Shown here: in pieces, positions 3,181 to 23,658 of the stretch
How the letters are laid out: each line of letters begins with the position of its first letter
Position numbering within the stretch: position 1 is the first letter of the stretch
IMG/VR virus record: IMGVR_UViG_3300036886_000138
Coordinates: 1 to 49,287 of that record
Strand: one strand, 5' to 3'
Length of the DNA: 49,287 nt
DNA from: a virus
The notes under the pieces: generated by a model
Databases searched by the model: none
Seen by the model: the letters and a program-made list of their open reading frames with translations, nothing else
What the model was told of the DNA's origin: nothing
Program-made: the position numbers and the translations under genes

Positions 3181-3181
3181 A

Positions 3182-4333
3182 TTAACGCTCGGCAAATTCT
3201 TTTTCTTGTTCTAAAAAGATTTCATAATCAACCGCCGCATCCTTTGCTCCATACCGAAGCAACCGCTCCTTGCCATCTGACGGCTTCCACTTCCGGCCCT
3301 CATCTTTGTAATAGGGTTCCCGTGTATATTGCATGGTTTGGAAATGGAGAGTATGCTCAAACTCAGGCCATAACACATGATGCCGAACAAGTGTGTCGTG
3401 AAGTTCCGCTATGTTTGACTCAATACCAATGGTGCGAAGCCAATGGGCGTCAAAGCTGTAATAGTTCTGGCCGATTAACTTGCGCGTACGGAGCACTTCG
3501 TCTAGTAATCGGAGAATCCTAGCACATTTATCCGTAGGATAATCCCAAAGCGCCCAGCTTATAGCAACGTCGGGTGACGTTGCTATAGCGATGCTATAGA
3601 CCATGCGGCAACGAATCATTTCGATGTCTGCCGCTGTCGCGTTGGCAAGGTCGTTTGGTTTTGCCAGTATATCGCGCAGAAACTCCACGATAGTTTCAAA
3701 GGGAGGAGCTACGATAAGCTGGCGTTGGGGTAACGGCGCTAAAGCGTCGTAGTTGTGCCAGTAACATAGTTCCTCCCAAGCTCGTTGGTAAATGAAAACG
3801 CTTATTTGGCGCTCGGACCACTCTCGTAGGACGAACGCTGGATGCTGAACTGGTATAACATAGTGGGGCCATGATAGCCTTGGTGAAACAAGTAGGCTAC
3901 CGCGCCATCGTCCAATTGGTATACTGGTCCGTCGAGCCCTGGTCTCCGGGCAAAGGAAGCCCAGGCTCGTTGCACCAGCGCAAATGATAATCGTAGGCTT
4001 ACTCGCGCCAAGCTCCTCCAAAAGCTGCTTTTCAAACATCTCACTCGGTATACCAATCTCTGATAAACGCGCAAGCTCATTGTTTGGTGGCCTCACTTTG
4101 TATAGATTTGTAAACCAAACCTGGGTCATATCAAAGCCTGCTTCTGCCATCATCTTGTCTTGTTCCCTACCGGAGGCGCCGCAGAACGGGATGCCAGAGG
4201 CATCTTCGTCAGCCCCAGGGGCTTCGCCAATTACTACGCAGGGCGCGCTTGTGTCACCACGGGTGCCAATATACTTAACACCTTTGGTCAAACAAGCACC
4301 GCGTAATTTTGATTCTTCAATACCGCAAATCAT
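3182..4333 (-). CDS. Uracil-DNA glycosylase-like domain fused to 3'-5' exonuclease
   Basis: Residues about 30-195 form a UDG superfamily domain: GEAPGADED at 36-44, NLYKVRPPNN at 76-85 and QHPAF at 163-167. Residues about 225-383 form a DnaQ/Pol I-type proofreading exonuclease: Exo I Asp236-x-Glu238, Exo II Asp295 in QNYYSFD, Exo III Tyr361-x3-Asp365. The Cys that follows NVVK in iron-sulfur family 4 UDGs is Val80 here and the N-terminal CxxC is absent, so a cluster is unlikely and glycosylase activity is uncertain. The start ATG 4333 overlaps the upstream stop by 4 nt. The next gene is the polymerase, in the +1 frame, so the usual exonuclease-polymerase chain is divided in two. Confidence 0.85.
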   Translation of the reverse strand: MICGIEESKLRGACLTKGVKYIGTRGDTSAPCVVIGEAPGADEDASGIPFCGASGREQDKMMAEAGFDMTQVWFTNLYKVRPPNNELARLSEIGIPSEMFEKQLLEELGASKPTIIICAGATSLGFLCPETRARRTSIPIGRWRGSLLVSPRLSWPHYVIPVQHPAFVLREWSERQISVFIYQRAWEELCYWHNYDALAPLPQRQLIVAPPFETIVEFLRDILAKPNDLANATAADIEMIRCRMVYSIAIATSPDVAISWALWDYPTDKCARILRLLDEVLRTRKLIGQNYYSFDAHWLRTIGIESNIAELHDTLVRHHVLWPEFEHTLHFQTMQYTREPYYKDEGRKWKPSDGKERLLRYGAKDAAVDYEIFLEQEKEFAER

Positions 4334-4503
4334 CTTCGCCCTAACTTTTCTAAAATTCCATCCCTATACCCTGTTCGCCGAAGATCGCGAAGCTCAGCCC
4401 ACATTCCACGAACGGTATTGAATCCAATATGAATCAACAAAGCGTTGATGGCTAAGCCTGAAACGCTTAGATAAACGATTAAACCAATGCCTAATTCATC
4501 CAT
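4330..4503 (-). CDS. Small single-pass membrane protein
   Basis: A 57-aa protein with one hydrophobic helix at about residues 5-24 and a basic, Arg-rich C-terminus, which predicts the C-terminus in the cytoplasm. The ATG at 4503 was chosen because GGAG lies 8 nt upstream; the longer frame from 4551 would overlap the methyltransferase further and has no such site. It overlaps the ParB-methyltransferase stop and the UDG/exonuclease start by a few bases, so it belongs to the replication operon. Membrane attachment of replication proteins is one possible role, but nothing in the sequence shows it. Confidence 0.6.
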   Translation of the reverse strand: MDELGIGLIVYLSVSGLAINALLIHIGFNTVRGMWAELRDLRRTGYRDGILEKLGRR

Positions 4504-5863
4504 TTTTGTTCTCCTTTTTTTGATTATCAATCGCAGATTGCGCCTGCGCACATCGTGCTTCGATTAGTGAATGGGCCGACGGCTCGCGTTCAAATAATAT
4601 CGGACTCATGCCAAGCTCAAGAGCGGCTACACCAGTAGTGCCAGAGCCAGCGCACCAATCAACGACCGTAGCGCCTTCGACGGCCATGTCCCCAAGAAAC
4701 CGTTTAACGAGTAATGTTGGCTGTTGTGCAATTTGTAATCGTTCGCTGGAGGTAATCGCTGGAATGTCTACGACGTTTGTTTGGCCGGGACGGATAAACA
4801 ACGGTGAACCCTTTGATACAACTAACGCCGCGTCGTAGGCGTTTGCGTAACGGGTGTTAGGGTTCTCTGTTGAACGAGTGTGCTTGTACCAGATAACGGG
4901 AACAGGGTTAACGACGAAGCCCACTGATTGTAGCATAGCCAAAAGCTGGCTGTAGTAATTAAAGCCGAAGAAAAAAACGCCGAAACGGTCATTGCGAAGC
5001 ACGCGGTGGGAAATGCTTGCAAGATCGGCGAGTTGCGAAACGATGGAATCGCGGTCGTCGGCATATTGTGCAACGCCTTTGTCGTGTTTGGACATTTCGG
5101 AGAGGGAAACTCCAAATGGTAAATCAGTATAAATAAGGTCAACACTCTCGTTTGGGATGGCGTTTGATAAAAGCCGAAAATCCCCCTTATACAAAGTCCA
5201 TCTCGGTGCGCCCGAAGGCAGCTTTGCCGCGTTAGTTTTCATCTTCACAACCGTTATGGTTGTGCGTAGCAACCGCATCGCAGATTCTTTAGTGGCAGCG
5301 TTCGCTAAAGCCGGTGCATTTGTAAGCATCGACGCAAGCGTTAAGTCTTTACTCGTCAAAGCGGCGCTTTCGCCAAGCATCGCGGCAAGTTTATTAACTC
5401 CAAACCCAGACTCGACCAAACCAAGACGTTCCCACCTTGATGGCGCACCTGGTCTTGCCTCGCCGTAGATTGCTTTCATGGTTTCCAAAAGCTTTTGTTT
5501 TGCAGAGACCTGTTCTTGCCAGGTAAGTTCTTTTCGTCGGAGATTTTCTTCAAGCTCAACGGCTTGTTTACGCAGCGGGTCGGAGTTCTCCTCCCCAAGA
5601 CATAGAAAGTGAACACCATGTATAAGCTTGATGATACCAAGCTTTTTCATAGCAGCCAAACGACGACCACCAATAACAAGACGTATTTTATCAAATGCTG
5701 GGTCGCCAGTATAATCAAAGTCAAGTATAATTGGCTGCAAAAGCCCAAACTCTTTGATAGATTCGGCGAGCTTATCAATATCGCCGAGATCAATGCGAAT
5801 ACGGTCGCTTACAAGGATGGTGTTAATGTTTATAGATTGAACGTTTGTGGTTTTTTCATCCAT
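4496..5863 (-). CDS. ParB-like domain fused to DNA N6-adenine/N4-cytosine methyltransferase
   Basis: Residues 8-115 are a ParB/Srx-type domain with IGGRRLAAMKK at 64-74 and an ELEENLRRKELTWQEQ segment. Residues about 220-445 are an amino-methyltransferase: catalytic motif IV TDLPFG (246-251) precedes the AdoMet loop DWCAGSGTTG (402-411), the beta-class order. A central helical part (about 120-215) links them. Such fusions occur in phages and mobile elements and may protect phage DNA from host restriction or mark it for replication or packaging. No restriction endonuclease is adjacent. The start ATG 5863 shares a base with the upstream stop (TAATG) and has GGAGG 6 nt upstream. The target sequence cannot be read from the protein. 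Confidence 0.88.
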   Translation of the reverse strand: MDEKTTNVQSININTILVSDRIRIDLGDIDKLAESIKEFGLLQPIILDFDYTGDPAFDKIRLVIGGRRLAAMKKLGIIKLIHGVHFLCLGEENSDPLRKQAVELEENLRRKELTWQEQVSAKQKLLETMKAIYGEARPGAPSRWERLGLVESGFGVNKLAAMLGESAALTSKDLTLASMLTNAPALANAATKESAMRLLRTTITVVKMKTNAAKLPSGAPRWTLYKGDFRLLSNAIPNESVDLIYTDLPFGVSLSEMSKHDKGVAQYADDRDSIVSQLADLASISHRVLRNDRFGVFFFGFNYYSQLLAMLQSVGFVVNPVPVIWYKHTRSTENPNTRYANAYDAALVVSKGSPLFIRPGQTNVVDIPAITSSERLQIAQQPTLLVKRFLGDMAVEGATVVDWCAGSGTTGVAALELGMSPILFEREPSAHSLIEARCAQAQSAIDNQKKENKNG

Positions 5864-6030
5864 TACTTGCCTCCGGTGAGCTGGGCGATAGCCGCGTCGA
5901 TGCCAAGAATCATCGAATTGGTTTTTATGAAATCATCAACGATGGCGCATTCCTGAAAATCAGGCCAGTCATTTGCTGCTTCCAACCACTTCTCCACCAA
6001 TCTGTAAATCGGCTCCGGTCTATCGCTCAT
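5863..6030 (-). CDS. Small acidic protein, 55 aa
   Basis: Starts at ATG 6030 behind a strong GGAGG site and ends at a TAA sharing one base with the methyltransferase start. The product (MSDRPEPIYRLVEKW...) is short, mostly helical and acidic, with a Trp-rich first half. No family was recognised. The tight packing on both sides (4-nt overlap upstream, TAATG downstream) and the Shine-Dalgarno site make it a convincing gene despite its length. Confidence 0.7.
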   Translation of the reverse strand: MSDRPEPIYRLVEKWLEAANDWPDFQECAIVDDFIKTNSMILGIDAAIAQLTGGK

Positions 6031-6236
6031 TTCCCTACCTCCTTCCGCAAAGCCTCAACTTCTGCGCGTTTCTTCTGTAATGCTCTGCCCTCTCTGAGAT
6101 GCAGTTCCATTACCTCGTATTGCCCCTCCGCGATCTTTAGCTTGACGAACGGGAGCAACATTTCCACTAGAGGTCTAGGTCCATCCATATGCGGAAATAT
6201 GCTTGTCAATTCTTCCCTGAGTTTGTCGTCTCTCAT
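6027..6236 (-). CDS. Small helical protein, 69 aa
   Basis: A charged protein whose second half (EGQYEVMELHLREGRALQ and what follows) should form one long helix or coiled coil. Two ATGs follow each other; the second, at 6236, gives the better distance to AGGAGG, the first is at 6239. It overlaps both neighbours by a few bases. Function unknown. Confidence 0.65.
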   Translation of the reverse strand: MRDDKLREELTSIFPHMDGPRPLVEMLLPFVKLKIAEGQYEVMELHLREGRALQKKRAEVEALRKEVGK

Positions 6237-6433
6237 CATCCCCTCCTATCGAGTTCACTGATCACGTCTACCGGCTTAACCTTCTCTGGCTCTGGAAACG
6301 CCGTTTCATGCACTCTCTTGCACAGCCAGTAGCAGCCGACCGACAGAATGAATATAGCTGTCAGCGCCACGATAGATAGACAGGCCAAACCAAACACCTC
6401 GACAAATCCGCGACATAGTCCATCGTTGAGCAT
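6236..6433 (-). CDS. Small single-pass membrane protein, 65 aa
   Basis: ATG 6433 with AAGGA 6 nt upstream was chosen over the longer frame from 6490. One strongly hydrophobic helix covers about residues 13-36 (FGLACLSIVALTAIFILSVG), followed by WLCKRVH and an acidic/Pro-rich tail. It is the second of three one-helix proteins in this unit (also at 4330 and 7655). Its stop overlaps the next start. Role unknown. Confidence 0.62.
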   Translation of the reverse strand: MLNDGLCRGFVEVFGLACLSIVALTAIFILSVGCYWLCKRVHETAFPEPEKVKPVDVISELDRRG

Positions 6434-6852
6434 TAGGTTTCCTTTTCCTGCGTGAGTTTGGCGATGGCCGAGCCTACGTTCCGCTTGCAAGTTTTACATA
6501 GTCCGTTACCGTTGGTTTTGGCCTTACACTCTTGAACCATTAGAAGCACCGCGACCACATCCACTTCGGCAGAGGACTTAGGCGCGGCGGGAGCGGGCTG
6601 TTGATGACAAGGACAAGGACAAGGCTGATTCGGCTTGTGAATCCATGCTCTAATAAATCCACTTGCGTCAACGTCGGCTTCCCAACAACTCTTGCACCTG
6701 TCGTTACCTAGCGGAACGGGCTGCTTTGCTTCGGCCTCCAGCTTGTCAAGCGCGGCCTCTTCACCTTTAAGAAATTTGGAGCACGCTCTACACTTTCTGA
6801 AATGCTTGATATTGCTTTTAAGCTGCTCGATGCTTGCTTCACGTTCCGTCAT
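6433..6852 (-). CDS. Cysteine-rich, probably zinc-binding protein, 139 aa
   Basis: ATG 6852 follows GGAG by 5-6 nt, so the upstream 45 codons of the open frame are excluded. The product contains CRAC, CKSC, CPCPCH and CKTC clusters, enough for two or more zinc sites, in a mostly helical charged chain. The CPCPCH cluster resembles CNCACH in the 48-aa protein at 9839. Its start codon lies 11 bases beyond the stop of the upstream gene. No named family was recognised; an adaptor or nucleic-acid-binding role is only inferred from the zinc sites. Confidence 0.65.
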   Translation of the reverse strand: MTEREASIEQLKSNIKHFRKCRACSKFLKGEEAALDKLEAEAKQPVPLGNDRCKSCWEADVDASGFIRAWIHKPNQPCPCPCHQQPAPAAPKSSAEVDVVAVLLMVQECKAKTNGNGLCKTCKRNVGSAIAKLTQEKET

Positions 6853-8142: not shown

Positions 8143-8619
8143 TTACTTCCCCAAATTCGTCGAGTGTTTGTCCGAGCAGCCCGGCACCGCGCAGACGTAT
8201 TGGTTGATTTTGTTTTGTGGCCGTCCTTTGTCATCCTCCCCGACCTTGAGGAAAATCTGCGCCGTCCGTCCCTGTAACGGTCCAGCGTAGCTCCACTTTT
8301 CGGGGTCGGTTTCGTTTGGTGGATTGAACGTGCCCGGCAATTCGTCCTTATCGGCGCCGTCGAGTTCAAGCCCGAAAGCGTGGACGAAATCTTTGATAAC
8401 CCAATCAGCACTTGTGCTCAGGTTCTCGAACACAAGCTGGTCGTTGTATGTTGGGTGATTGATGATTTTGAGAGTCGGCCGGAGGTTAATCGCCGATTGA
8501 TTCTTGGCCTTTGCGCTGGGTTTCTTCGGTTTAAAACCGTCGAGCCGGATGGTGTAAAGGCCCTCGGGTAGAACGGGCGGTCCCGCGAGTTTTTCTTTAT
8601 TTAATTTGATTGTTGCCAT
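8143..8619 (-). CDS. Candidate single-stranded DNA-binding protein (DUF669-like)
   Basis: The 158-aa product begins PPVLPEGLYTIRLDGFKPKK, then NLRPTLKIINHP..QLVFENLS and WVIKDFVHAFGLEL, resembling phage proteins of the DUF669 type that commonly occur beside a Sak4- or Erf-like recombinase and often act as ssDNA-binding proteins. The neighbouring RecA-fold ATPase gene supports that reading. GGAG lies 11 nt before ATG 8619, a long spacing. Assignment rests on pattern and position, not on a clear OB-fold signature. Confidence 0.5.
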   Translation of the reverse strand: MATIKLNKEKLAGPPVLPEGLYTIRLDGFKPKKPSAKAKNQSAINLRPTLKIINHPTYNDQLVFENLSTSADWVIKDFVHAFGLELDGADKDELPGTFNPPNETDPEKWSYAGPLQGRTAQIFLKVGEDDKGRPQNKINQYVCAVPGCSDKHSTNLGK

Positions 8620-8691: not shown

Positions 8692-8856
8692 TTAATCCAA
8701 ATGCTGCAAAGCAAATTGTTTTAATGCTACATATGCCCTCTCAAATATTGTTCTCCCGGAAAAATCAACCTCATCCGGTACTATTATTTTAATGGTAACA
8801 ACTGTACTGAGAAGGACATGGTTATAATCAACAGTAACTTCCGTGATAGTGTTCAT
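8692..8856 (-). CDS. Hypothetical protein, 54 aa
   Basis: ATG 8856 overlaps the stop of the Sak4-like gene by 4 nt. The product (MNTITEVTVDYNHVLLSTVV, then TIKIIVPDEV and a short helix) alternates like two beta strands plus a helix. No family recognised. The overlap and the absence of any other frame here support it. Between its stop and the next gene (8620-8691) there is only leader sequence. Confidence 0.6.
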   Translation of the reverse strand: MNTITEVTVDYNHVLLSTVVTIKIIVPDEVDFSGRTIFERAYVALKQFALQHLD

Positions 8857-9650
8857 TTAACATTCCCTGACAAAGATCGATGATACTCAATCATTTCGGT
8901 GATGTTCGGCCAAGCAGCTTTCCCGCTGAGATTCAATGAACATTCCGCGGTGAATTTCCAATTTGGAATGGTTTGTATCGACGGAACGGCGTTGATGCGT
9001 TCAAGCACCCATACATCGGGGAAATATCGCAGCAAGCGTTTATGCCGCACAGGGAACGTGGTAATTTTGCCGGTGAGCTTAACGTTTTCGCCGGTTGAAT
9101 CCGGTGACTCTTCTTCGGTTTGATGAAACGTTACAATCAAATCACACGGCAACGCCATCGCTCGCAGGATGATGGATTCTGCCGCTTGCATTTCGCTGCT
9201 CCAGCCATCGAAGGATTTTGATACATGAATGGCCATCCCGCCCTTTACAACGATTTCGCGGCGGAGGTCTTTTTCAACGTATAGATTATACGCCATTAAC
9301 GCCCGCGCAAATGTGGCCATTGAGTCGATGACCAACGTACCCAACGGTACAGATACTTCATCGAAACCAATCACTTTCAAAGAGCACTCTTTTTCAAGAG
9401 CGGTTAAAATATCAAGCGTAAGCGGTGCAGCGTCTGGTTGCGAAAATGGTTTCGCATCCCGAAATGTTTTGGCGTAGACACCTTTCCGCCCAGCAAGGCT
9501 TTCAGCCTTTTGGTCATAATCAAGGAATAATACAGGCTTTCTGCCGGTGGCAGCGAGCGTGCTTTTACCAACGCCTTCCGGCCCGATCAAAGCGATATGC
9601 TTTTTCGCCGTTGGCGCTAACGCGCCGATGTCGTGGGTCTCGACTGGCAT
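8853..9650 (-). CDS. RecA-fold ATPase, Sak4-like (AAA_24 type), recombination
   Basis: ATG 9650 with AAGGAG upstream gives 265 aa; the longer frame from 9788 runs through the neighbouring gene. Walker A GPEGVGKST is at residues 23-31, a DYDQK segment follows at about 43, and Walker B is TLVIDSMATFARA. A TFHQ segment at about residue 180 matches the sensor region of Sak4-type proteins. These ATPases work with phage ssDNA-binding proteins in single-strand annealing or recombination-dependent replication. The downstream DUF669-like gene and upstream PD-(D/E)XK nuclease fit a recombination set. Confidence 0.8.
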   Translation of the reverse strand: MPVETHDIGALAPTAKKHIALIGPEGVGKSTLAATGRKPVLFLDYDQKAESLAGRKGVYAKTFRDAKPFSQPDAAPLTLDILTALEKECSLKVIGFDEVSVPLGTLVIDSMATFARALMAYNLYVEKDLRREIVVKGGMAIHVSKSFDGWSSEMQAAESIILRAMALPCDLIVTFHQTEEESPDSTGENVKLTGKITTFPVRHKRLLRYFPDVWVLERINAVPSIQTIPNWKFTAECSLNLSGKAAWPNITEMIEYHRSLSGNVK

Positions 9651-9651
9651 T

Positions 9652-9855
9652 TTAAGGTCTCCTTTTTTGGTAGATAGCTTTTGGTCCTTTAGAAAATGTA
9701 ACAAAAATTTCAATGGAACTAAAACGTTTGTGACAACCACAGCACGCGTAGCGACGGTATTTCTGCCACGACCCGTCAAAACGAACACGGGTGTTTACTA
9801 CTCGTAATTGTGAGTCGCACTCAGGGCAAACGGAGTGGCTACGCCCTTTCGGCAT
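9652..9855 (-). CDS. NrdR-like zinc-ribbon protein, 67 aa
   Basis: From ATG 9855 (GAGGAG upstream) the protein contains VCPECDSQLRVVNTRV and YACCGCHKRFSSIE, matching the four-cysteine ribbon at the NrdR N-terminus (CPxC...RRRRECxxCxxRFTTYE). The ATP-cone domain of true NrdR is missing. It may bind DNA as a small regulator or associate with recombination proteins. An Ogr/Delta-type activator is the main alternative. It ends two bases before the Sak4-like start. Confidence 0.68.
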   Translation of the reverse strand: MPKGRSHSVCPECDSQLRVVNTRVRFDGSWQKYRRYACCGCHKRFSSIEIFVTFSKGPKAIYQKRRP

Positions 9856-9987: not shown

Positions 9988-11049
9988 TTATTCCGTTTCG
10001 TAAGCTACCCACGGTGGCGATTGTGTGTAAGAAGCCTGTATTTGCACGTTGCGGGCGCCGGGTGTAATAGAATCAATCGCTCGGTACTCGCAAGGGCGAC
10101 CGTAGTTAAAATGACAAGAGCTTTCTCGCATTGGCCACACGCCTGTGTTAATACACTCGCGCAGCCGCTCGGCTTTTACGATAACCTCACGACGCCATTC
10201 TTCAATTTCTTCCCAAGTATAGTTCGGATAAGCGCGCTTGAAGCGTGGGCGTTTAGCGCCACCGTTTTTCGGCTTATCGGTTGGTTCCTCACGGGCTGCG
10301 CCGTTTATGATGCAACGGTCAACAACGGAGTTGGGAAATCCCAAAGATTTGGCAAGCAGCCCAACGGCATAAATATAACCAACGGTCTGCGCGTGCGGCT
10401 TCCACTTAGCATCAAAGTCTGGCTCGATTTTCGCGGTCGTTTTGTGGTCTACTGGTACCAAACGCTTGTTCTCGTCCAGCACAACCAAGTCTGGCTTACC
10501 GACGTAGTAAACATCAACCTTGTCGGTTCCACCAACCCAAACTTCATCTTTCATCCCGAAACCACTCTCAGTGGCGATGATCTTCCAAGTACGTTTGTCT
10601 TGCTCGGCGCGTATATCATAGTACGAAGTAATCATCGTCATAGCGCCTTGCGGGAGCGGGTATGGCACGCCGTTAAATTCCACCTGAACGCTAGTGCCGC
10701 CGAACGCTTCGTACTTTTTCGGGTCGAGGGTTTTAAACAACTCCATACCATGCTCGTCCCAGCGTTTGACCGCGCTCACGATAGCGGCATTACGCGTAAG
10801 CGTACCCGCCGCCATCATCTCGTAGAAATCCGACATCACATCCGACCACCATTGACCAAACTTCAACGTCCAACCTACGGTGCCCTTCGGGCGGAGAATC
10901 ATACCCGCGGCATTGGGAAAATGCTTGTAAAAGAACAAGCGTTCGCAGGTGTTAAAGCTGTTAATCATATGGTGGTCAAAGCGGAGCTTCATTCGACCAC
11001 CGGGCAAACGCTCGTAGAATGGTTTGTACGCCAGAGGTTTATCTGTCAT
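9988..11049 (-). CDS. PD-(D/E)XK nuclease, RecB/Cas4-like
   Basis: The 353-aa protein has the RecB-type core: Glu161 in ATESGFG, GKPDLVV at 184-190 with the catalytic Asp, VDHKTT at 200-205 (D-x-K) and a following QTVGYIYA helix. A late ESSCHFNYGRPCEYRA segment has two Cys like the C-terminal part of Cas4/AddB proteins, though a complete four-Cys iron-sulfur set is not evident. Role inferred: processing DNA ends for recombination, or degrading host DNA. ATG 11049 overlaps the upstream stop by 4 nt with GGAGG 11 nt before it. Confidence 0.85.
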   Translation of the reverse strand: MTDKPLAYKPFYERLPGGRMKLRFDHHMINSFNTCERLFFYKHFPNAAGMILRPKGTVGWTLKFGQWWSDVMSDFYEMMAAGTLTRNAAIVSAVKRWDEHGMELFKTLDPKKYEAFGGTSVQVEFNGVPYPLPQGAMTMITSYYDIRAEQDKRTWKIIATESGFGMKDEVWVGGTDKVDVYYVGKPDLVVLDENKRLVPVDHKTTAKIEPDFDAKWKPHAQTVGYIYAVGLLAKSLGFPNSVVDRCIINGAAREEPTDKPKNGGAKRPRFKRAYPNYTWEEIEEWRREVIVKAERLRECINTGVWPMRESSCHFNYGRPCEYRAIDSITPGARNVQIQASYTQSPPWVAYETE

Positions 11050-11660
11050 TCTTTTTTCGCCTCCTTTGGCGCTTGCGCCGGCATCATCGCCTGTAGCATT
11101 TCCAACGTAAAGCCCGCGGCTTTCAACTTTGCTGCCATCGCAGCGGCTGGGTTCGCGGTCTTGCTCGCGGCCTTGGCTTCGCCGACTTTGATTTTACCAG
11201 CAAAACTCAACGGCGAACCAGTTCGCATTTTACGCAGATTTGACCTGCGCCGATCATCGCGCTCGCCCTCAATCATCGTGCCCATGATGCGGTTGTACTC
11301 CAACGCCCGTTCACATTCGTGAACTTTCATGGTATATTGATTAGCGAAACGCTCAAGTTCTTGGTCGGACATATTAACGACCGAGCCGGCACGACTTACA
11401 TAGTAAGGCCCGACAGGCGTTATAAGCCGTCCTTCCTGCTCCACACCGTCGGAGTTCACCAACGGAGCTTCTTTGATTTCTGCGGCTTTTTCATTTAAGC
11501 AATCACCGCAGGTGTAAATATCCAGCGAAGCCGCGTGGTTAATGCAGAACGGGCGACCGCAGATTGTGCATTGGGTTGTGGACGTTAGTAAACGGTCAAC
11601 CAGAGATTCATCGGGTTCCAACGGTGTTCTGTCGCAGATATAGCATGGTGACGATGGCAT
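11046..11660 (-). CDS. Zinc-finger protein, 204 aa
   Basis: First gene after the promoter at 11688-11716. ATG 11660 has GGAGG about 12 nt upstream; the frame from 11720 would start inside the promoter and is rejected. Residues 1-60 hold CYIC, CTICGRPFC, H and CGDC, a multi-zinc treble-clef or RING-like arrangement. The middle is helical with a basic stretch (ERDDRRRSNLRKMR), the end Ala/Lys-rich. It may be a nucleic-acid-binding or regulatory protein; nothing more specific is visible. Confidence 0.7.
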   Translation of the reverse strand: MPSSPCYICDRTPLEPDESLVDRLLTSTTQCTICGRPFCINHAASLDIYTCGDCLNEKAAEIKEAPLVNSDGVEQEGRLITPVGPYYVSRAGSVVNMSDQELERFANQYTMKVHECERALEYNRIMGTMIEGERDDRRRSNLRKMRTGSPLSFAGKIKVGEAKAASKTANPAAAMAAKLKAAGFTLEMLQAMMPAQAPKEAKKE

Positions 11661-11687
11661 GTATGCGGTGCCTCCATTTCTTGTAAG

Positions 11688-11716
11688 AGAGTAGCATATA
11701 TAGTGCTTACTGTCAA
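11688..11716 (-). promoter_or_regulatory. Sigma70-like promoter for the recombination genes
   Basis: On the minus strand TTGACA (11716-11711), a 17-nt spacer, then TACTCT (11693-11688) preceded by TGC, an extended -10. It sits 28 bp before the start of the zinc-finger gene at 11660. Confidence 0.7.
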
Positions 11717-11740
11717 GCACTATAAGTGCTTTAGATTCAA
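11701..11740. promoter_or_regulatory. Palindromic operator overlapping the -35 box
   Basis: TAGTGCTT (11701-11708) and AAGCACTA (11715-11722) form a perfect inverted repeat around the -35 hexamer. It overlaps a second palindrome, AGCAC-TATAA-GTGCT (11716-11730). Bases 11717-11740 recur with one change at 16700-16723 beside another promoter. The arrangement suggests a repressor or activator with AGTGCT half-sites. Confidence 0.55.
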
Positions 11741-11907
11741 CGTTTTAGAGCTATTTCTAAGAGCAAGATTTTTGCTTTCAACGCCATGACTTGCACGCAA
11801 AACCGAGCGTGAGAATTAGTGGTGCTTTTGAGGGTTTCCGCCTCCGCCTGGTCAATCAAAGCAACAACAGTATTTGTCATTTCCTGTATATTAGCATCAA
11901 GTTTCAT
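11737..11907 (-). CDS. Hypothetical helical protein, 56 aa
   Basis: ATG 11907 follows GGAGGAG by 8 nt and is preferred to ATG 11928. The product is all-helical (MKLDANIQEMTNTVVALIDQ, then VQVMALKAKILLLEIALKR). No family recognised. It ends just before the operator and promoter at 11,688-11,740, so it is the last gene of the unit that begins with the J-domain protein. Confidence 0.58.
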   Translation of the reverse strand: MKLDANIQEMTNTVVALIDQAEAETLKSTTNSHARFCVQVMALKAKILLLEIALKR

Positions 11908-11927
11908 TATGTATTCTCCTCCCGTCA

Positions 11928-12233
11928 TTAGGCGTTACCTTGTGGTCTTACGTTTGCCAAAATTTCATCTGACGGCCAATGTGGCTTTTCTGCCTCGGTT
12001 ATTTCGAGGATTTCCGCGATTGGAGCAATCGCTCCAAGTATTAGTTTGAAACGGTCACGCGTATAGGTCGCGGCGTTGTCAAGTAACCACTGACGCTCAT
12101 GGCCAGGTTTCATCGTCGCAACCTTTACGATACTATTATCGGAACGGCTGATTACAATAATGGTTGAACGTGAGTATTGCCCACGTTCATCAGCGCGTAG
12201 CGGGAGCATTAAAAGAGTGTCAGGCATATTCAT
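11928..12233 (-). CDS. Hypothetical protein, 101 aa
   Basis: ATG 12233 overlaps the FtsK stop by 4 nt, with GGAGG about 10 nt upstream; ATG 12227 is an alternative. The sequence suggests an alpha/beta protein (STIIVISRSDNSIVKVATM, then a KLILGAIAPIAEIL helix). No family recognised. Its coupling to the FtsK-type motor suggests a shared process. Confidence 0.6.
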   Translation of the reverse strand: MNMPDTLLMLPLRADERGQYSRSTIIVISRSDNSIVKVATMKPGHERQWLLDNAATYTRDRFKLILGAIAPIAEILEITEAEKPHWPSDEILANVRPQGNA

Positions 12234-13423
12234 AACGAAGCTGCCTCCTTTTGAATCGACACCTCAACCGCCGCTTCGATGTCTTTTATCGACGCAAACG
12301 GCGAGTGTAAACGAACAATCGTTGGGCGCAGCGGTGATGAATACAGCATATCACCACGGGCGAGCAAATGCTCCGCGCCTTCGGTGTTTATCACCGTTCG
12401 GCTGTCAATATCACTGGGCAAACGAAACGTCAAACGTGCGGGGAAGTTCGATTTTATCGAACCTTTAACAATGTCGACCGATGGTCGTTGGGTTGACGCG
12501 ATAACGTGGATGCCGCTTTTGCGGCTCTTTTGAACCATTGTCGAAAGCTTGCTCTGCGCGACTTTGCCCAGTGATGGGCCTTTCTTCTCGCCATCACCTT
12601 TACGGTCATCACAGAGTAAATCAGCAAGCTCGTCGATTAGGAAGAGGATGCGGGGCATCCTCTTTGATGGAACGCCAGCGCCTGACATTTGAATGGCGTT
12701 ATACTCCGCGATGTTCCGCACGCCTGCTGCGGCAATCTTCTTGAGCCTATCCTCCATCTCGTCTAATAACCAATCCATTCGCTCAAGCGTTTGGTAGATG
12801 TTAATTGCTGGTGGAAATAGCAGATGTGGAGCACCGATAAAGTGTGTGAACTCTACGTTCGTTGTATCTGAAAGAACGAGCTTGAGGGTGGAACTGTTTA
12901 CACAGTAAACAATTGAGGCGAGCAAGCTGCTCAAAAGCGTGGATTTGCCGCTGCCTGTGGTACCCGCAATCAACAAATGCGGTAGCAACGCTAAATCTTC
13001 GCAGAAGAACTTACCAGTATGGTCAACGCCAAACGCAAGTGGTATCTCATGTGGAGCATTGGAGGCTTGTAGCTTCCATAACTCCGTAACGATTGTTTTG
13101 AAATCAACAAACGTTCGTTCGGTGTTTGGTACAAACACAGCCACCGCGGATTCGCCTGGCAAACGCTTGATTAGAATATCTTCAACTCCTAATGCCACCG
13201 CAAGGTCCGAGGCGAGCGCCTCAAGATGAGACACTTTTGTGGAGCCTTGCGGTAGCAATCGGTAAACTGAAACGATTGGACCAACGCTAACGTTTGGTAG
13301 CATTTTAACGTTGCAACCAAGACCGAGCAGTTTCATACCGATTACACTCATGGTACGAATCTGCTCGGGCGTTAGTGTTGAATCGAGACCGTCGAGTTTA
13401 CGTTGTAGCGGTTCAGCTATCAC
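12230..13423 (-). CDS. FtsK/SpoIIIE-type DNA translocase, soluble motor only
   Basis: The 397-aa protein has the FtsK alpha domain (residues about 45-100, with VGPIVSVYRL and ESAVAVFVPN) and beta motor domain: Walker A GTTGSGKS at 154-161, Walker B ILFLIDELADL at 259-269, the TQRPSVDIV motif at 311-319 and ARGDMLY near 355. Both the membrane domain and the DNA-reading gamma winged helix of bacterial FtsK are missing, so it would be a cytosolic motor without the usual sequence steering. The start is GTG 13423, overlapping the VWA stop (GTGA), with GGAGG 7 nt upstream. It could pump DNA during replication or resolve concatemers. Family certain, function inferred. Confidence 0.9.
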   Translation of the reverse strand: MIAEPLQRKLDGLDSTLTPEQIRTMSVIGMKLLGLGCNVKMLPNVSVGPIVSVYRLLPQGSTKVSHLEALASDLAVALGVEDILIKRLPGESAVAVFVPNTERTFVDFKTIVTELWKLQASNAPHEIPLAFGVDHTGKFFCEDLALLPHLLIAGTTGSGKSTLLSSLLASIVYCVNSSTLKLVLSDTTNVEFTHFIGAPHLLFPPAINIYQTLERMDWLLDEMEDRLKKIAAAGVRNIAEYNAIQMSGAGVPSKRMPRILFLIDELADLLCDDRKGDGEKKGPSLGKVAQSKLSTMVQKSRKSGIHVIASTQRPSVDIVKGSIKSNFPARLTFRLPSDIDSRTVINTEGAEHLLARGDMLYSSPLRPTIVRLHSPFASIKDIEAAVEVSIQKEAASL

Positions 13424-14151
13424 GCTTTCACCTCCGAAGCGCCGATCAAATTCGCTGCGCCCGGCAACATTAGCCTGCTACGCAGGCCTGGCGTTAGATA
13501 CTTTAACGCCTTTCCGAAGGAAGCAACATCCGAGAAGCGGATAAATATCCCTCCGGTTATCTCCGCTATACGCTTTAGTGTATCAGCGCCTTCGCCATCG
13601 GAGATATGAACGCAGTCGATGGGTATTTTTGCTTCTGCATATGTTTGCGCAATATCGAAGCAAAGGTTGCCATCAGTCTGCCCACCATCCGAGATGAGCA
13701 CCGCTCGTGTTATTGGGTAATTACCGAGCGTTTTTTGCATTACGTCTCCGATAGGCGTGCTGCTTACGGCTTGAATATTGGCTGATTCAATAGCTAATGC
13801 GATAGCATCGGCCATCAACGGCGTTGATAAATCGTTACCGATACCGACAAGCGCAACGCTTGTTTGTGTTAAGTCACAAGCTTCGATGAAGCCTTTAACG
13901 GCATCCCGTTCATGCTGGATTTTCGGCTTGCCTGCGGCATCATTTCTCATAGAACCACTGCAATCGCACAAAATTGCTATGCGATTTGGCATTGAAACTG
14001 CCGCCTCATGCATCTGTGATGCACTGGGTGGTTCCACCGAAGCTGTGCCATCACGCTTGGCCGCGTTCATGCGCGCGCGGAAGCTATTCGCTGGTGGGCC
14101 AATCTTAATTTTGATTGGCTTCGCTAACGTATTGGGGTCTTCGTATGGCAC
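13420..14151 (-). CDS. von Willebrand factor A (VWA) domain protein
   Basis: The 243-aa protein has a full MIDAS: DCSGS at 63-67, Thr132 in SSTPIGD and Asp155 in LISDGGQTDG, in a Rossmann-like fold ending near residue 215. Residues 1-50 are basic and probably extended. VWA proteins often pair with AAA+ or motor ATPases as adaptors; here the gene is directly coupled to an FtsK-type motor. GTG 14151 with GGAGG 7 nt upstream is the start, lying inside the end of the preceding 59-aa gene. Confidence 0.85.
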   Translation of the reverse strand: MPYEDPNTLAKPIKIKIGPPANSFRARMNAAKRDGTASVEPPSASQMHEAAVSMPNRIAILCDCSGSMRNDAAGKPKIQHERDAVKGFIEACDLTQTSVALVGIGNDLSTPLMADAIALAIESANIQAVSSTPIGDVMQKTLGNYPITRAVLISDGGQTDGNLCFDIAQTYAEAKIPIDCVHISDGEGADTLKRIAEITGGIFIRFSDVASFGKALKYLTPGLRSRLMLPGAANLIGASEVKA

Positions 14152-14303
14152 GGTTCCACCTCCGTTTCATTTTTGATTTTTACAACGGCATAGCCAATAT
14201 CCTCAAAGAAATATTCAAGGGCTATGTAACGCTCGTGCTCCTTTAAAAGATAAGGTTTTTGTTTCTCAGCAAGTTCCAGTGTTACTGTGATAACTTGTTT
14301 CAT
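14124..14303 (-). CDS. Small protein between J-domain and VWA genes, 59 aa
   Basis: ATG 14303 overlaps the J-domain stop by 4 nt; AAAGGAGG lies 10 nt upstream. The frame ends at TAG 14126-14124, overlapping the VWA start by 28 nt. The product (MKQVITVTLELAEKQKPYLL, KEHERYIALEYFFEDIGYAV) looks like a small alpha/beta protein. No family recognised. Its place in the coupled chain makes it a candidate partner of the VWA/FtsK pair. Confidence 0.62.
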   Translation of the reverse strand: MKQVITVTLELAEKQKPYLLKEHERYIALEYFFEDIGYAVVKIKNETEVEPCHTKTPIR

Positions 14304-14995
14304 TGATGAAATACCTCCTTTTGAATTCTATCCCACAAAGCATTCAAACGGGCCATCTTCTCCATATCACCACCCGCTTTATCCGGGTGCAACGCGATAG
14401 CGCCAGCGCGGTATGCGCTACGCATCGCTTCATATGGCAACAGCTTAACAAACTGTACCAGCACGTTGTCAAGCGGCGAACTAGCGATTGCTGGCGGAAC
14501 GCTGGCTTTTTGCGTTTGTTCTTTGGTGATAACGGTATAATTGCTGGTTCCGAAGATTTTATCCGCGAGCATTTTAATCGGCCCGAGGTAGCTTTCCGGG
14601 AAAGTCCATATCTTCGTGTTATCATCATAATCACGGAGATTACCAGGAATCAAAAGTTTCAACGATTCAAAGAACCGTTTGTCGTATGGACTAGCCAATC
14701 GGTAAGCGTCAAGCGCGGGGTCGTACCAGATTTTTACTTTTTGGTTGTTTGCCATTGGTGGTGGAACACCTCCGTATTTTCCTTGGTATTGTGATGGAAT
14801 TGGTAATATAACGTGGAAATCAATCAATGAACCACATTTACATACTTGTGTATAATGGCCCGGGCTTGCTGTATAGTATGCGCCATGCACACAATTGCAC
14901 GCAAAACACTCAAAAATATTTGGTCTGATTTCTAGTAATCGCTGACCGGTTTTGATATCGGTTGCGATTATAACTAAACCATTAGCATTTGCCAT
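14300..14995 (-). CDS. J-domain (DnaJ-like) protein with N-terminal cysteine cluster
   Basis: The C-terminal 45 residues read as a short J-domain: LPYEAMRSAYRAGAIALHPD with His203-Pro204-Asp205 at the diagnostic position, then KAGGD and a closing helix. The HPD loop triggers the ATPase of Hsp70/DnaK. Residues 30-54 carry Cys30, 33, 35, 52 and 54, a probable zinc site. Residues 81-150 (WYDPALDAYRLASPYDKRFF) resemble no domain I can name. The start is uncertain: ATG 14995 has a weak site, while in-frame ATG 14755 has GGAGG 13 nt upstream and would give a 151-aa form without the cysteines. Confidence 0.72.
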   Translation of the reverse strand: MANANGLVIIATDIKTGQRLLEIRPNIFECFACNCVHGAYYTASPGHYTQVCKCGSLIDFHVILPIPSQYQGKYGGVPPPMANNQKVKIWYDPALDAYRLASPYDKRFFESLKLLIPGNLRDYDDNTKIWTFPESYLGPIKMLADKIFGTSNYTVITKEQTQKASVPPAIASSPLDNVLVQFVKLLPYEAMRSAYRAGAIALHPDKAGGDMEKMARLNALWDRIQKEVFHQ

Positions 14996-15127: not shown

Positions 15128-15634
15128 TTACGCGGTAGCGCTGGCCTTCTGGAACTCCTGCAACAGCTTCGCCATTTCCTCCGGCGTCAATTCGCTGAAC
15201 ATCTTGCGAATCTTGTCCGCAGGCGCCAGCCGTTTGCGTTCGGTAGCTGCCGCGCAAGCTTCCTTCAAATCGTACTCGCCTTCGACTGGTTCGAATTCCG
15301 AATCGGTCAAAGTGTCGCGCACGAATACTTGCTGCTTCAGAACCAAACCGCGGTTGACGATGTTCGCCCGTTGCGCAGGGTCCGATACCAGCTCTACGAA
15401 GTCTGCGTCGGTTTCGACCTCGTAGAATCGGAACGCTTGTATCAAGGGATTCTGAGTTTTGGAACCAGCAACTTCCGGCTCCGCCACCGTTGCACCAGGC
15501 TCCTTCGCCTTCGCAACTTCCTTGTTGTATTTGTTCTCGGGCAACACCCGCACATACGGCGTACCGGCTTCGCCTGGTTTTTCCGCTGGCGCGATAGCCG
15601 TAACACCGATATACGTTTCGAGTGATGTTTTCAT
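15128..15634 (-). CDS. Hypothetical protein, 168 aa
   Basis: ATG 15634 follows AAAGGAGG by 9 nt and lies behind the strongest-looking early promoter (15724-15752), with a terminator directly after the gene, so it is a one-gene transcription unit probably expressed at high level. The protein is acidic, with a beta-rich start (LETYIGVTAIAP), a central LVLKQQVFVRDTLTDSEFEP segment and a helical end (ELTPEEMAKLLQEFQKA). No family recognised. High expression would suit an early takeover or DNA-binding protein, but that is inference. Confidence 0.72.
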   Translation of the reverse strand: MKTSLETYIGVTAIAPAEKPGEAGTPYVRVLPENKYNKEVAKAKEPGATVAEPEVAGSKTQNPLIQAFRFYEVETDADFVELVSDPAQRANIVNRGLVLKQQVFVRDTLTDSEFEPVEGEYDLKEACAAATERKRLAPADKIRKMFSELTPEEMAKLLQEFQKASATA

Positions 15635-16184: not shown

Positions 16185-16637
16185 TTATTCTCCCGTATTT
16201 GTGTTAGCGTTACAAACGCCTGCGCGCTTTCCGCTCGCAATCTCAAATAACTCCTTAATCAATTCCGACCGTGAGATTGCCGGCCCGCTTGCGGTTGCCA
16301 AACGCTCTGGCAATTCTCGCAGCGATTCCAAGGCGTCAAACGCCTTGCGTCGGTTTCGCATATCTTTGCTGATGAATTGTGGAGCACCACACTCCATTCT
16401 ATCGATGTCGCTAAAGCGAGCACCACAACGGCGGCAATTATAACTCCTAATCTCTATCTGTTGTGGTTCACCGTTTGCGGTGGCGTTCGCTGGGAGTGTA
16501 ATCATACGCGAGAAGCTTGGTAACATATAGCAAGTCTTTGCCCCACACCCTGGACAATGAACGCCGGTGCGACCACAACCACAGGTTACCTGTGTTTGTG
16601 CACCGACTTGGTTTCTCTCTTTGGTTGCTTGAATCAT
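16185..16637 (-). CDS. Zinc-ribbon protein, 150 aa
   Basis: ATG 16637 is 9 nt after GGAGGG; the ATG at 16658 lies upstream of that site and is rejected. Residues 10-35 carry CGCGRTGVHCPGCGAKTC, and about 40 residues later YNCRRCGARF completes a second ribbon half. The C-terminal half is helical and charged (SELIKELFEIASGKRAG). It may be a small transcription or nucleic-acid-binding factor. Its promoter and an operator lie just upstream. Confidence 0.68.
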   Translation of the reverse strand: MIQATKERNQVGAQTQVTCGCGRTGVHCPGCGAKTCYMLPSFSRMITLPANATANGEPQQIEIRSYNCRRCGARFSDIDRMECGAPQFISKDMRNRRKAFDALESLRELPERLATASGPAISRSELIKELFEIASGKRAGVCNANTNTGE

Positions 16638-16660
16638 AGGATAGTGCCCTCCATGCATGT

Positions 16661-20396: not shown

Positions 20397-21970
20397 CCGC
20401 GTTGATCACCGCTATTTTGTTCTTCGGTACACTTGTCCTCATCACCGAGCGTTCTGCTTTCGGTCAAACTGCTACATTCTTCAATAACACCTACACGATT
20501 GCCAAGAACGATGTCGCTATCAATAACCAAGGCTCACCGATAACGTTACACCGTTTAACGTGGGTTCCTATCGGAACCGTTAGCACCTGCACCGTTGCTT
20601 TGGATTCATCGGTTGACGGTTCAACCTGGGTTGCGGGTGGTGTTATCGCTGGTCAGACTTGCACAGGTGCCTCGCAGAGTGCGGTTACCATCGCCGAAGC
20701 GAACTACGTTCGGGTAAGCCTAACGGCCTTGAGCGGTGGCGGTAGCATAGGCGTTACTTACGACGGCAATGTGAGTGCCACCGGCCTTGGCTCGTCTGTT
20801 CGTTCCTCCATGCAATATAATAGCACCTACACCGCACCTACAGTGGATTCAGGCGTTAATCTCAACGGCTCTCCGATAACAATCCACCGACTAACATGGG
20901 TTCCAATTGGCACCGTTTCAACGTGCAACGTTGCTTTGGACTCGTCAGTGGATGGAACTAATTGGTCCGCAGGTGGGGCTATCGTTGGGCAGACCTGCAC
21001 AAGCGCAGGTCAAAGCGTGGCTACCACCAAAGTAACAAACTTTGTTCGTATAAATCTTGGAACGTTTACTGGCACCGGCTCGGTTGTTGTTATCTACGAT
21101 GGTAATATTGCAAGCGCCAACGGGGCTGGTTCTCCAGTGTTCACCAACCAAACTAACGTTTACGGCGCTTTTTTGCAGGATTTCTCAGCGGGAAGCATCG
21201 ACTTACCGGATGGCGCTGGCTTCGTGGCCACGACCGACTCAAACATAGGGATCGATACAACCGGCCAAAACGTACACCTTTTTAATGCCGGCACAGATAC
21301 GCTTATTCAAAGTTCACAAGCAATTCTCGCCCTAAATGTGATCCCGAAATCTGCGAACGGGAGCAGCGGGCTCCAAACCGCGTCTTTGTGCGTCGAAAAC
21401 GGCACGACGCTCGCCTGCACCGACTCCGGCGGCGCATCGTTTGTGGGCATTACTTCAACCGGAGCGGTTAGTTTATCTCCTGCCAACCTGGCCGTCACGA
21501 TTTCCCCTACTGGCACAGGCACAGTCGCCATCAATCCCACGGCAGTAGGTGCGATCGACAACGTGAATATAGGAGCAACAACGCCGGGCACTATCAAAGG
21601 CACCAATGTCAACGCGACGCTGACTTATAAAGTGAATTCTAAACTTTTGGGGTCGGCTACAGCCCCGACTATCAGCTCAGGCTTTGGCACCAGCCCCACC
21701 ATCCCCAGTAACAACGGCACCTTTGTTTTTACGATCAACGTGGGCACCGGCGGAGCCGCCACCACCGGCGTGGTCGCTCTGCCCGCTGCAACCACCGGAT
21801 GGCATTTATCGTGCGACGACATCACGACCAAGAGCGCCACGGTTGATTCAACTGTGCAAACCGGCGTAGGCACCACCACGACTGTGCCCATCGGAAATTT
21901 TACCAGCGGCGGCATAGCCGGGGCCTGGGTCGCGAGTGACATCTTGCTCTGTACTGCGATGGCTTACTAA
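20360..21970 (+). CDS. Exported/surface protein with two tandem cysteine-pair domains
   Basis: ATG 20360 has AGGA 5 nt upstream. Residues 10-30 form a hydrophobic segment after basic residues, ending at SAFGQ, which reads as a signal peptide or anchor. Two homologous repeats of about 113 residues follow (about 38-140 and 152-255), each with HRLTWVPIGTVSTC, LDSSVDG and GQTCT; the paired Cys suggest a disulfide. The same domain occurs in the protein at 29583. Residues 255-536 are low-complexity Thr/Gly/Ala beta-rich sequence of the phage fibre type. It lies between terminase genes, far from the tail genes. Adhesin, decoration protein or host-surface modifier are possible; none is shown. Confidence 0.72.
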   Translation: MGRVRINHRGFIAALITAILFFGTLVLITERSAFGQTATFFNNTYTIAKNDVAINNQGSPITLHRLTWVPIGTVSTCTVALDSSVDGSTWVAGGVIAGQTCTGASQSAVTIAEANYVRVSLTALSGGGSIGVTYDGNVSATGLGSSVRSSMQYNSTYTAPTVDSGVNLNGSPITIHRLTWVPIGTVSTCNVALDSSVDGTNWSAGGAIVGQTCTSAGQSVATTKVTNFVRINLGTFTGTGSVVVIYDGNIASANGAGSPVFTNQTNVYGAFLQDFSAGSIDLPDGAGFVATTDSNIGIDTTGQNVHLFNAGTDTLIQSSQAILALNVIPKSANGSSGLQTASLCVENGTTLACTDSGGASFVGITSTGAVSLSPANLAVTISPTGTGTVAINPTAVGAIDNVNIGATTPGTIKGTNVNATLTYKVNSKLLGSATAPTISSGFGTSPTIPSNNGTFVFTINVGTGGAATTGVVALPAATTGWHLSCDDITTKSATVDSTVQTGVGTTTTVPIGNFTSGGIAGAWVASDILLCTAMAY

Positions 21971-23658
21971 TGAACGAACAATTCCAACTCGTTCCTCACC
22001 AACCAAACGAATCACCAGAAGCCAAGATTCGTGTGATGCGAACCAACAGTCTCGGCTCTTTGTTTTGGTTTATCAAACACGCCCTACGTCGTAAGCGTTT
22101 GACAACTTCGTTGCATTTGCCGATCTGTCGTTCGCTAGAACGCGAGCACATCAAGGATGTGCTCGAAATGCCACGCGACCATTTCAAATCGACGATTTGT
22201 TCCGAGGGCTTGCCGATGTGGTGGGCGCTTCCATTTACGTCGGCCGATGAGGCGGAGTTTAAACTTCTTGGCTATTCGGAAGAATTTCTCCGTTTCATGC
22301 GTCATGTACATGACCCGGAAACGCGTACCTTACTTGTAAGCGAAAACATAACAAACGCCGCGAAGCTTGGTTCTAAGATTCGTTGGCACTTTGAATCAAA
22401 CGCTATTTATCGTTCCTTGTTCCCAGAGACTTTGCCATCAACTAAAGAGGTTTGGACAAACTTCTCGCTTCATGTACGCAGCGCGGCTGGTGGCAGCCAT
22501 GGCGAGGGAACGTTTGATTTCCTTGGGGTTGGCGGCGCTTTGCAATCTCGGCATTATAAGCGTGCGGTTCAAGATGATCTTGTCGGTCGTAAAGCGATTG
22601 AATCCCAATCTATCATGGACAAGACCATTGAATATCACCAACTTCTGGTTGGCGCGTTTGAAAGCGAAGATGCAAACCATGAAAACAGCGAACTCGTCGT
22701 TGGCAACCGATGGTCGTATTTCGACCTCAACTCCCATATACGGGAGAAGGAACCTTGGTTCCCAATTCACAGCCACAGTGCGCTTGGAGGGTGTTGCGGA
22801 TTACATCCGACTGATACGCCAATCTTTCCCGAGGAGTTCAGTCACAGTAAACTTGCCGGAATACGAAGGCGGCTTGGCGCATATAACTTTTCGTGCCAGT
22901 TCTTAAATAACCCCTGTGCTCCCGAGGACGCTGATTTTAAGCTTGAGTGGTTGCAATACTTCACCCCAACCATCTCGAAAGACTTCCGTGATATAATCGT
23001 TCACAAAGTGAATGGTTACGGTGTTCGCAAGGATTTGTACCGGCGATCGCTTGCAATTGTTATGATCACCGACCCGGCGCATAGCGAGGGAATATCAAAA
23101 GATCGTTGCCGCCATGCGATTGACATCATTGGTATGTCGGAGGACGAGAACTTTTACCTGCTTGATTACTGGGCCAAGCAAGCTTCCTATGATACCTACA
23201 TCGCCGAGCTTTTCAAAATGGCTGATAAGTGGAAACTTAATCAAGTTGGTGTTGAGACTATTGCCGCGCAACGCTATCTCGCTTACCATATTAAATATCG
23301 TAGCCGAATGGAAGGCCGCACGTTGCGCATCATTGAGTTAAAAGGTGAGGTCGAAGGCCCTGATGGCGCTATCACCACGAGAAAAGAATGGCGTATTCGT
23401 AACATTCTTCAGCCCATCTTTGAAGAGGGCCGATTCTGGATTAAGATGATGCCGGATGGGTCGGTACCACAACAAGATTTTCTTGGTGAGTATCAGACTT
23501 TTCCAAAGGGCAAGTTCTGTGATATTCTCGACGCGCTCGCCTACGCACCGCAGGTGCTTCGTAAGAGCATGACTAGTGGTGCTTACGATAGTTGGCGTCG
23601 AGCGAATGATTCGCGTCAGCGTTTGGTTAACCAATCTTATTCAGTAGCAGTAAACTAA
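21970..23658 (+). CDS. Terminase large subunit (TerL)
   Basis: The 562-aa packaging motor has a T7/T4-style ATPase with variant Walker A MPRDHFKST (67-75), Walker B RAVQDD (198-203), and an RNase H-like nuclease with Asp368 in MITDPAH, Glu429 in GVET and Asp518/Asp521 in FCDILDAL. These residues place it firmly in the TerL superfamily. The ATG shares a base with the upstream stop (TAATG). It cuts and translocates DNA through the portal encoded three genes downstream. Confidence 0.93.
   Translation: MNEQFQLVPHQPNESPEAKIRVMRTNSLGSLFWFIKHALRRKRLTTSLHLPICRSLEREHIKDVLEMPRDHFKSTICSEGLPMWWALPFTSADEAEFKLLGYSEEFLRFMRHVHDPETRTLLVSENITNAAKLGSKIRWHFESNAIYRSLFPETLPSTKEVWTNFSLHVRSAAGGSHGEGTFDFLGVGGALQSRHYKRAVQDDLVGRKAIESQSIMDKTIEYHQLLVGAFESEDANHENSELVVGNRWSYFDLNSHIREKEPWFPIHSHSALGGCCGLHPTDTPIFPEEFSHSKLAGIRRRLGAYNFSCQFLNNPCAPEDADFKLEWLQYFTPTISKDFRDIIVHKVNGYGVRKDLYRRSLAIVMITDPAHSEGISKDRCRHAIDIIGMSEDENFYLLDYWAKQASYDTYIAELFKMADKWKLNQVGVETIAAQRYLAYHIKYRSRMEGRTLRIIELKGEVEGPDGAITTRKEWRIRNILQPIFEEGRFWIKMMPDGSVPQQDFLGEYQTFPKGKFCDILDALAYAPQVLRKSMTSGAYDSWRRANDSRQRLVNQSYSVAVN

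Follow-up and report, generated by a model that had tools for sequence, protein, structure and literature searches.

J-domain, VWA and FtsK genes inherited together in a conserved phage gene block: a candidate DNA-pump module

The J-VWA-FtsK cluster

The virus record IMGVR_UViG_3300036886_000138, analysed over its full 49,287 bases (hereafter the window), carries on its minus strand a cluster of genes for a J-domain protein (J), a von Willebrand factor A (VWA) protein and an FtsK-type motor, which together form the subject of this report. From position 14995 to 11928, the order of transcription is J, a 59-aa open reading frame (ORF), VWA, FtsK and a 101-aa ORF. J (14300..14995; 231 aa) was characterized by Pfam matches to DnaJ and HARP, by profile comparison with solved structures in the PDB and by a predicted model, and appears to consist of an N-terminus of low model confidence (residues ~1-80), a HARP-like domain (~85-160) and a C-terminal J-domain (175-231) with the HPD motif at residues 203-205. 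It is followed by the 59-aa ORF (14124..14303), by VWA (13420..14151; 243 aa; Pfam VWA and fold), which features an intact metal ion-dependent adhesion site (MIDAS) and a C-terminal GA-x-E tail, by FtsK (12230..13423; 397 aa; Pfam and closest solved chains), which comprises alpha and beta domains only, and by the 101-aa ORF (11928..12233). Successive reading frames overlap by 4, 28, 4 and 4 nucleotides, and a 63-aa ORF (11737..11928) prolongs the chain with an overlap of 1 nucleotide with the 101-aa ORF. An earlier note, made from the letters of the window alone, had described five genes with overlapping ends at this place, and both their coordinates and their overlaps are borne out.

Conservation across related phages

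J, VWA and FtsK are co-inherited in the same order and on the same strand in all 28 records that hold them after dereplication, namely 27 metagenomic viral records, the window included, and one contig of a Sulfuriferula metagenome-assembled genome (MAG); most of these relatives are metagenomic contigs, and many of them are partial. All three genes are present in every record that spans the region, and wherever only some of them are seen the contig ends there. In addition, J and VWA are present in 40 of the 40 loci that hold both of the flanking genes p168 and p224 (24 after dereplication), as well as in all 45 loci that hold the terminase large subunit (TerL) together with FtsK. The HPD motif of J, the DxSxS of the VWA MIDAS and the Walker A and B motifs of FtsK are intact in 28/28 records, three of the Walker motif sets lying outside the strict pattern and having been read by eye. 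Since the median pairwise identity amounts to only 39% for J, 38% for VWA and 48% for FtsK, the linkage is old and has been maintained rather than reflecting recent shared ancestry.

No other conserved gene lies between J, VWA and FtsK in any of the 28 records, while unconserved ORFs do intervene. Profiles of the 59-aa, 101-aa and 63-aa ORFs recover no homolog at the corresponding positions in the relatives, and a VWA gene that overlaps or directly adjoins FtsK occurs in no more than three of the 28 records. The coupling of five genes is therefore a local feature of the window genome: of the co-occurrence in other phages that the earlier note had anticipated, the strict co-inheritance of J, VWA and FtsK stands, whereas the 59-aa and 101-aa genes drop out, and the overlaps that made the cluster appear coupled hold for the window without being a property of the family. 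The real conserved unit is larger than the five-gene cluster. When profiles were run over all ORFs of the loci, a common order of about ten genes emerged in the records that extend over it, p157–p168–J–VWA–FtsK–p224–PD-(D/E)XK–Sak4–p158–ParB/methyltransferase, from which individual flanking genes were not recovered by profile in single cases (p224 in locus L122, p168 and p157 in L129, ParB in a few).

Searches of viral contigs with the window FtsK or VWA singly returned no close relatives, and the relatives were therefore reached through TerL. The TerL search yielded 14 loci at 53-60% identity, the VWA profile 23 loci, and the TerL profile 80 viral loci plus, among GTDB genome contigs, the one Sulfuriferula MAG contig. 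The latter (L129, G035:C7) is a distant member with a TerL 42% identical to that of the window; it keeps J, VWA, FtsK, p224, PD-(D/E)XK, Sak4 and p158 in order and may represent an integrated or a mis-binned phage. The Sulfuriferula assignment comes from this single 47.7-kb contig, which is too little to name a host. The VWA profile found no match in GTDB genome contigs and only one weak match, in Salinigranum, among plasmids. Among named phages, neither VWA queries from three different members nor tblastn searches with the window VWA and J gave a match; matches to J were confined to 31-37 residues around the HPD motif in Aeromonas and Morganella phages, and no full-length relative of J was found in that collection. 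The nearest named phages share only ~20-30% of TerL. Taken together, the finding points to an abundant phage group without a close isolated relative.

Domain composition of the three proteins

FtsK is matched by the Pfam families FtsK_SpoIIIE (3e-34) and FtsK_alpha (5e-11), and the closest solved chain to its family profile is that of FtsK itself (2iuu, 5e-96), with TcpA (6e-36) and the type VII ATPase EccC5 (3e-22) far behind. With an alpha domain that begins at residue 26 and a motor match that runs to residue 316, ~80 aa are left behind it, which agrees with the earlier description of a motor devoid of membrane and gamma domains; the reading frames of the relatives span 341-427 aa, the shortest one ending at a contig edge. 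Relatives of the window FtsK among phage FtsK/SpoIIIE-like proteins (phrog_1358) are less than 60% identical. Judged by these matches, the protein is the predicted core of a DNA pump and not a divisome protein. A role as packaging motor was rejected, as the phage has a separate TerL (21970..23658, plus strand; phrog_38, 5e-62), and so was a role as secretion ATPase, as the closest structures are those of DNA-translocating FtsK. Another phage, L050, encodes an FtsK 38% identical (5313-6791, plus strand) near genes that by eye resemble DnaB and primase genes, without VWA or J; it was considered as a relative lacking these two and rejected, being a different phage, and illustrates that phage FtsK motors occupy replication regions elsewhere too.

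The VWA assignment of the earlier note, including the intact MIDAS, holds in Pfam, profile and fold searches alike. The window protein scores above the Pfam cutoff (1.7e-5; 25.5 bits against 23.8), the complete MIDAS (DxSxS..T..D) is invariant in 20 of 20 members, and the predicted model (predicted local distance difference test score, pLDDT, 87) matches VWA folds at Z ~18-21, led by bacterial VWA proteins and archaeal ArnA/ArnB at Z ~20 and followed by TFIIH Ssl1/p44 at Z ~19. Many extracellular VWA proteins score alike, so that the fold identifies no partner. Moreover, the family conserves the short C-terminal tail GA-x-E, which may serve as a docking peptide. No MoxR-type AAA+ protein was seen among the block genes scanned.

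For J, the window protein by itself gives a Pfam DnaJ match of only 0.041, below the cutoff, but DnaJ matches 19 of 22 family members (best 5.1e-6), and solved J-domains emerge in a search with the family profile, that of polyomavirus T-antigen (1faf) being the best at E 1.5e-9, followed by Sis1 and auxilin. The HPD motif is invariant in all 22 aligned members. In the predicted model, helices at 175-185, 188-202 and 211-227 surround it, the HARP-like and J domains both exceed a pLDDT of 90, and superposition on the Sis1 J-domain gives Z 4.5 over 55 residues, whereas a Foldseek search with the whole model returned nothing at E<0.001. The J-domain proposed by the earlier note is predicted more firmly at the level of the family than from the window protein alone, with profile and fold searches in agreement.

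A second domain upstream of the J-domain, which the earlier note had missed, is assigned with moderate confidence as HARP-like. Pfam HARP (PF07443) matches 13 of 22 members (best 1.7e-4), the family profile reaches the SMARCAL1-family HARP structure 4o66 at E 0.029, and structural alignment of residues ~85-160 with N-terminal domains of XPB gives Z 5.2-5.7. In SMARCAL1, HARP is the part that anneals DNA, and HARP domains as well as XPB N-terminal domains bind single-strand/double-strand junctions or forks; Ghosal et al. 2011 are said to have tied HARP domains to annealing-helicase activity. As a side observation, the window also encodes a Cpn10/GroES-like co-chaperonin (327-647, minus strand; Pfam Cpn10 1.5e-8; phrog GroES 2e-5), so that the phage, with this homolog and the J-domain protein, would engage both host chaperone systems.

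Further genes of the block

The remaining conserved genes lie on the minus strand on both sides of the cluster. Upstream, the head of the block is formed by p157 (16185..16658), a zinc-ribbon-like protein, and p168 (15128..15634) always directly precedes J; the latter shows no recognisable fold and a weak match to archaeal RpoF (E 0.12). Downstream of the 63-aa ORF, p224 (11046..11720) keeps its place in the block and is Cys-rich and zinc-finger-like, Cys29, 51, 54, 59 and 74 being invariant in 16 members. It is followed by a PD-(D/E)XK exonuclease of the RecB/Cas4 type (9988..11049; Pfam PDDEXK_1 4e-12; phrog_1218 exonuclease 4e-19) and a Sak4-like RecA-fold single-strand annealing protein (8853..9788; Pfam AAA_24 2e-13; phrog_124 Sak4 6e-12), so that Sak4 with an exonuclease neighbour, as features of a Sak4 recombination module, is present in the block. 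Directly 3' of Sak4, p158 (8143..8619) is recognized by its conserved position and has no family or PDB match; it was guessed to be a single-stranded DNA-binding protein, which was not confirmed. The block ends with a ParB-like domain fused to a DNA methyltransferase (4496..5863).

Past Sak4, the window continues with this fusion, a DNA polymerase and a primase/helicase-like protein, while the head genes and TerL are encoded on the opposite strand. The polymerase is split into two overlapping minus-strand ORFs (1747-3195 and 3182-4333) that match successive parts of phrog_17; L121 likewise carries two ORFs, and a single ORF matches both halves in L123 and L133. In L044 and L036, the ParB ORF measures ~250 aa and is ParB-like without the methyltransferase part. 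In L022, the gene after ParB (11722-12864, plus strand) joins an ABC-type ATPase-like to an acetyltransferase-like part, which we take to be possibly a Mom-like DNA modification protein.

A possible function and its alternatives

The neighbourhood of a PD-(D/E)XK exonuclease, Sak4, ParB/methyltransferase and DNA polymerase suggests a role in recombination or replication, in which J, VWA and FtsK would constitute the motor part of a phage replication/recombination cassette. We tentatively favour, at somewhat less than even confidence, a model in which FtsK acts as a soluble double-stranded DNA (dsDNA) pump on phage replication and recombination intermediates. The alpha and beta domains would assemble into a soluble ring of six subunits that translocates dsDNA, the HARP-like domain would bind single-strand/double-strand junctions or forks and thereby mark the work site of the ring, and the C-terminal J-domain would bring in host DnaK, which would load, free or strip proteins there. 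VWA might serve as an adaptor, its MIDAS connecting J, and perhaps p168, with the other components. Such a complex, should one form at all, could drive branch migration, or clear or process recombination intermediates in concatemeric form, and the J-DnaK interaction would be its recycling step. The functions of the pump and of the J-domain are the more secure steps of this scheme, junction targeting and the VWA bridge the least secure. Recruitment of DnaK to remodel the complex, already suggested in the earlier note, is plausible given the invariant HPD motif and the known action of the phage J protein Rki on DnaK. Sak4-type recombinases are reported to be required for phage replication in Staphylococcus aureus (PMC5499656).

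Several observations weigh against this model. Partial correlations of distance matrices from 18 genomes revealed no specific co-evolution signal between VWA and FtsK (~0.08; 5-95% range on subsampling -0.06 to 0.22), the value for J and FtsK is -0.07, and the gap between VWA and FtsK reaches 2 kb with unrelated ORFs in some relatives. On the side of the domain assignments, the DnaJ scores of members shown singly stay below the curated cutoff of 27.8 bits, the best HARP match (21.5 bits) falls under its cutoff of 25, and the HARP-like part aligns only moderately well with known structures (Z 5-7), eIF1-like folds scoring up to 7.0. Finally, the presence of ParB leaves room for a function in segregation. 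There is perhaps one chance in a few that no three-part machine exists and that the conservation of an operon keeps J, VWA (with p168) and FtsK side by side as otherwise independent early replication genes, FtsK working with the nuclease/Sak4 side and J and VWA elsewhere. The correlations fit this picture, the value for PD-(D/E)XK and Sak4 being strong (0.54) and those for VWA-p168 (0.30, the best VWA correlation after removal of background) and J-VWA (0.25) weak but above those of VWA or J with FtsK, and the conserved order takes in p157, p168, p224 and p158 as well. It is opposed by the adjacency of J, VWA and FtsK in 28/28 records despite the unconserved ORFs between them, and by the weakness of a correlation into which only 18 genomes enter. 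If a physical unit exists, J, VWA and p168 may be its core.

That J is a DnaK hijacker, which serves host takeover by reprogramming or titrating DnaK and has no part in a DNA motor, appears rather improbable: the invariant HPD motif, the additional Cpn10/GroES homolog and the precedent of the toxic RB43 Rki, a DnaK binder that stabilises sigma32 (PMC3486835), speak for it, but a plain titrator would need neither a fused HARP-like domain nor a place in a replication block. Slightly less likely still is a module that readies concatemers for packaging or maturation by untangling or positioning DNA for the terminase, as proposed for the FtsK of Sinorhizobium phage AP-20-A (PMC13299392); a dsDNA pump would suit this task, whereas the block lies on the strand opposite TerL and adjoins Sak4 and the nuclease instead of head genes. 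A partition or lysogeny function, with FtsK and ParB moving or segregating an extrachromosomal prophage, is unlikely. Cellular FtsK serves as a segregation motor and a ParB-like gene ends the same block; on the other hand, the DNA methyltransferase fused to the window ParB points to DNA modification, FtsK is devoid of gamma and membrane domains, and neither ParA nor an integrase was identified among the genes annotated, which are not all of those present. A conflict or secretion system is largely refuted. In some type III-A CoCoNuTs, FtsK-like ATPases have VWA genes on their flanks (PMC11090510), and FtsK-type models of PADLOC match the motor, yet that motor resembles DNA-translocating FtsK and not EssC/EccC, PADLOC has no match for VWA or J, and family scans of the block showed no WXG100 protein, TerY-P kinase or phosphatase in the vicinity.

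Comparison with known systems

Literature searches in which the components were sought in combination returned no account of such a system, most subscription journals lying outside their coverage, which accords with the earlier note, whose author knew of no described phage system of such make-up; likewise, no earlier description of the HARP-J architecture was met. J-VWA-FtsK brings known domains together in a new, conserved combination whose function is inferred. Its motor belongs to the same family as the phage FtsK/SpoIIIE-like proteins (phrog_1358) of mycobacteriophages and Bacillus phages. Such motors are common among phages, and the linkage in 28 records provides a concrete hypothesis for the role of one of them.

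For the individual parts, several counterparts exist. RB43 Rki (PMC3486835) is likewise a phage J-domain protein with an HPD motif, from which an action on host DnaK would be expected by analogy, but the window protein differs in its HARP-J architecture, the C-terminal position of its J-domain and its location in a replication block. Polyomavirus T-antigen, the closest solved J-domain by profile, also combines a J-domain with viral DNA replication in one protein; that of the window, however, is short and C-terminal, matches only in the HPD region (helices II-III) and has no helicase in the same chain. TerY-P/CoCoNuT operons (PMC11090510) share the arrangement of VWA genes beside an FtsK-superfamily ATPase, but belong to a defence or secretion context with an EssC-type ATPase and with a TerY-P kinase/phosphatase pair not seen in the window block.

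The HARP-like domain of J resembles the annealing helicase SMARCAL1/HARP and the N-terminal, damage-recognition domain of XPB, with the difference that in the phage it is fused to a J-domain and not to an SF2 motor, the neighbouring motor being FtsK. In RuvAB, a junction binder is combined with a hexameric dsDNA pump for branch migration. The likeness to the window system would be one of working principle only, a junction-binding protein directing such a pump; the window proteins share no homology with RuvA or RuvB, the pump is of the FtsK type, and VWA and a J-domain are added. It is conceivable, though we consider it doubtful, that the three genes specify an undescribed chaperone-coupled dsDNA pump, in which an FtsK ring is guided by HARP-J, linked through the MIDAS of VWA and loaded or recycled by DnaK. 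If so, a chaperone-driven DNA pump would be added to the viral recombination machinery, as a phage counterpart of RuvAB and SMARCAL1 built from unrelated parts.

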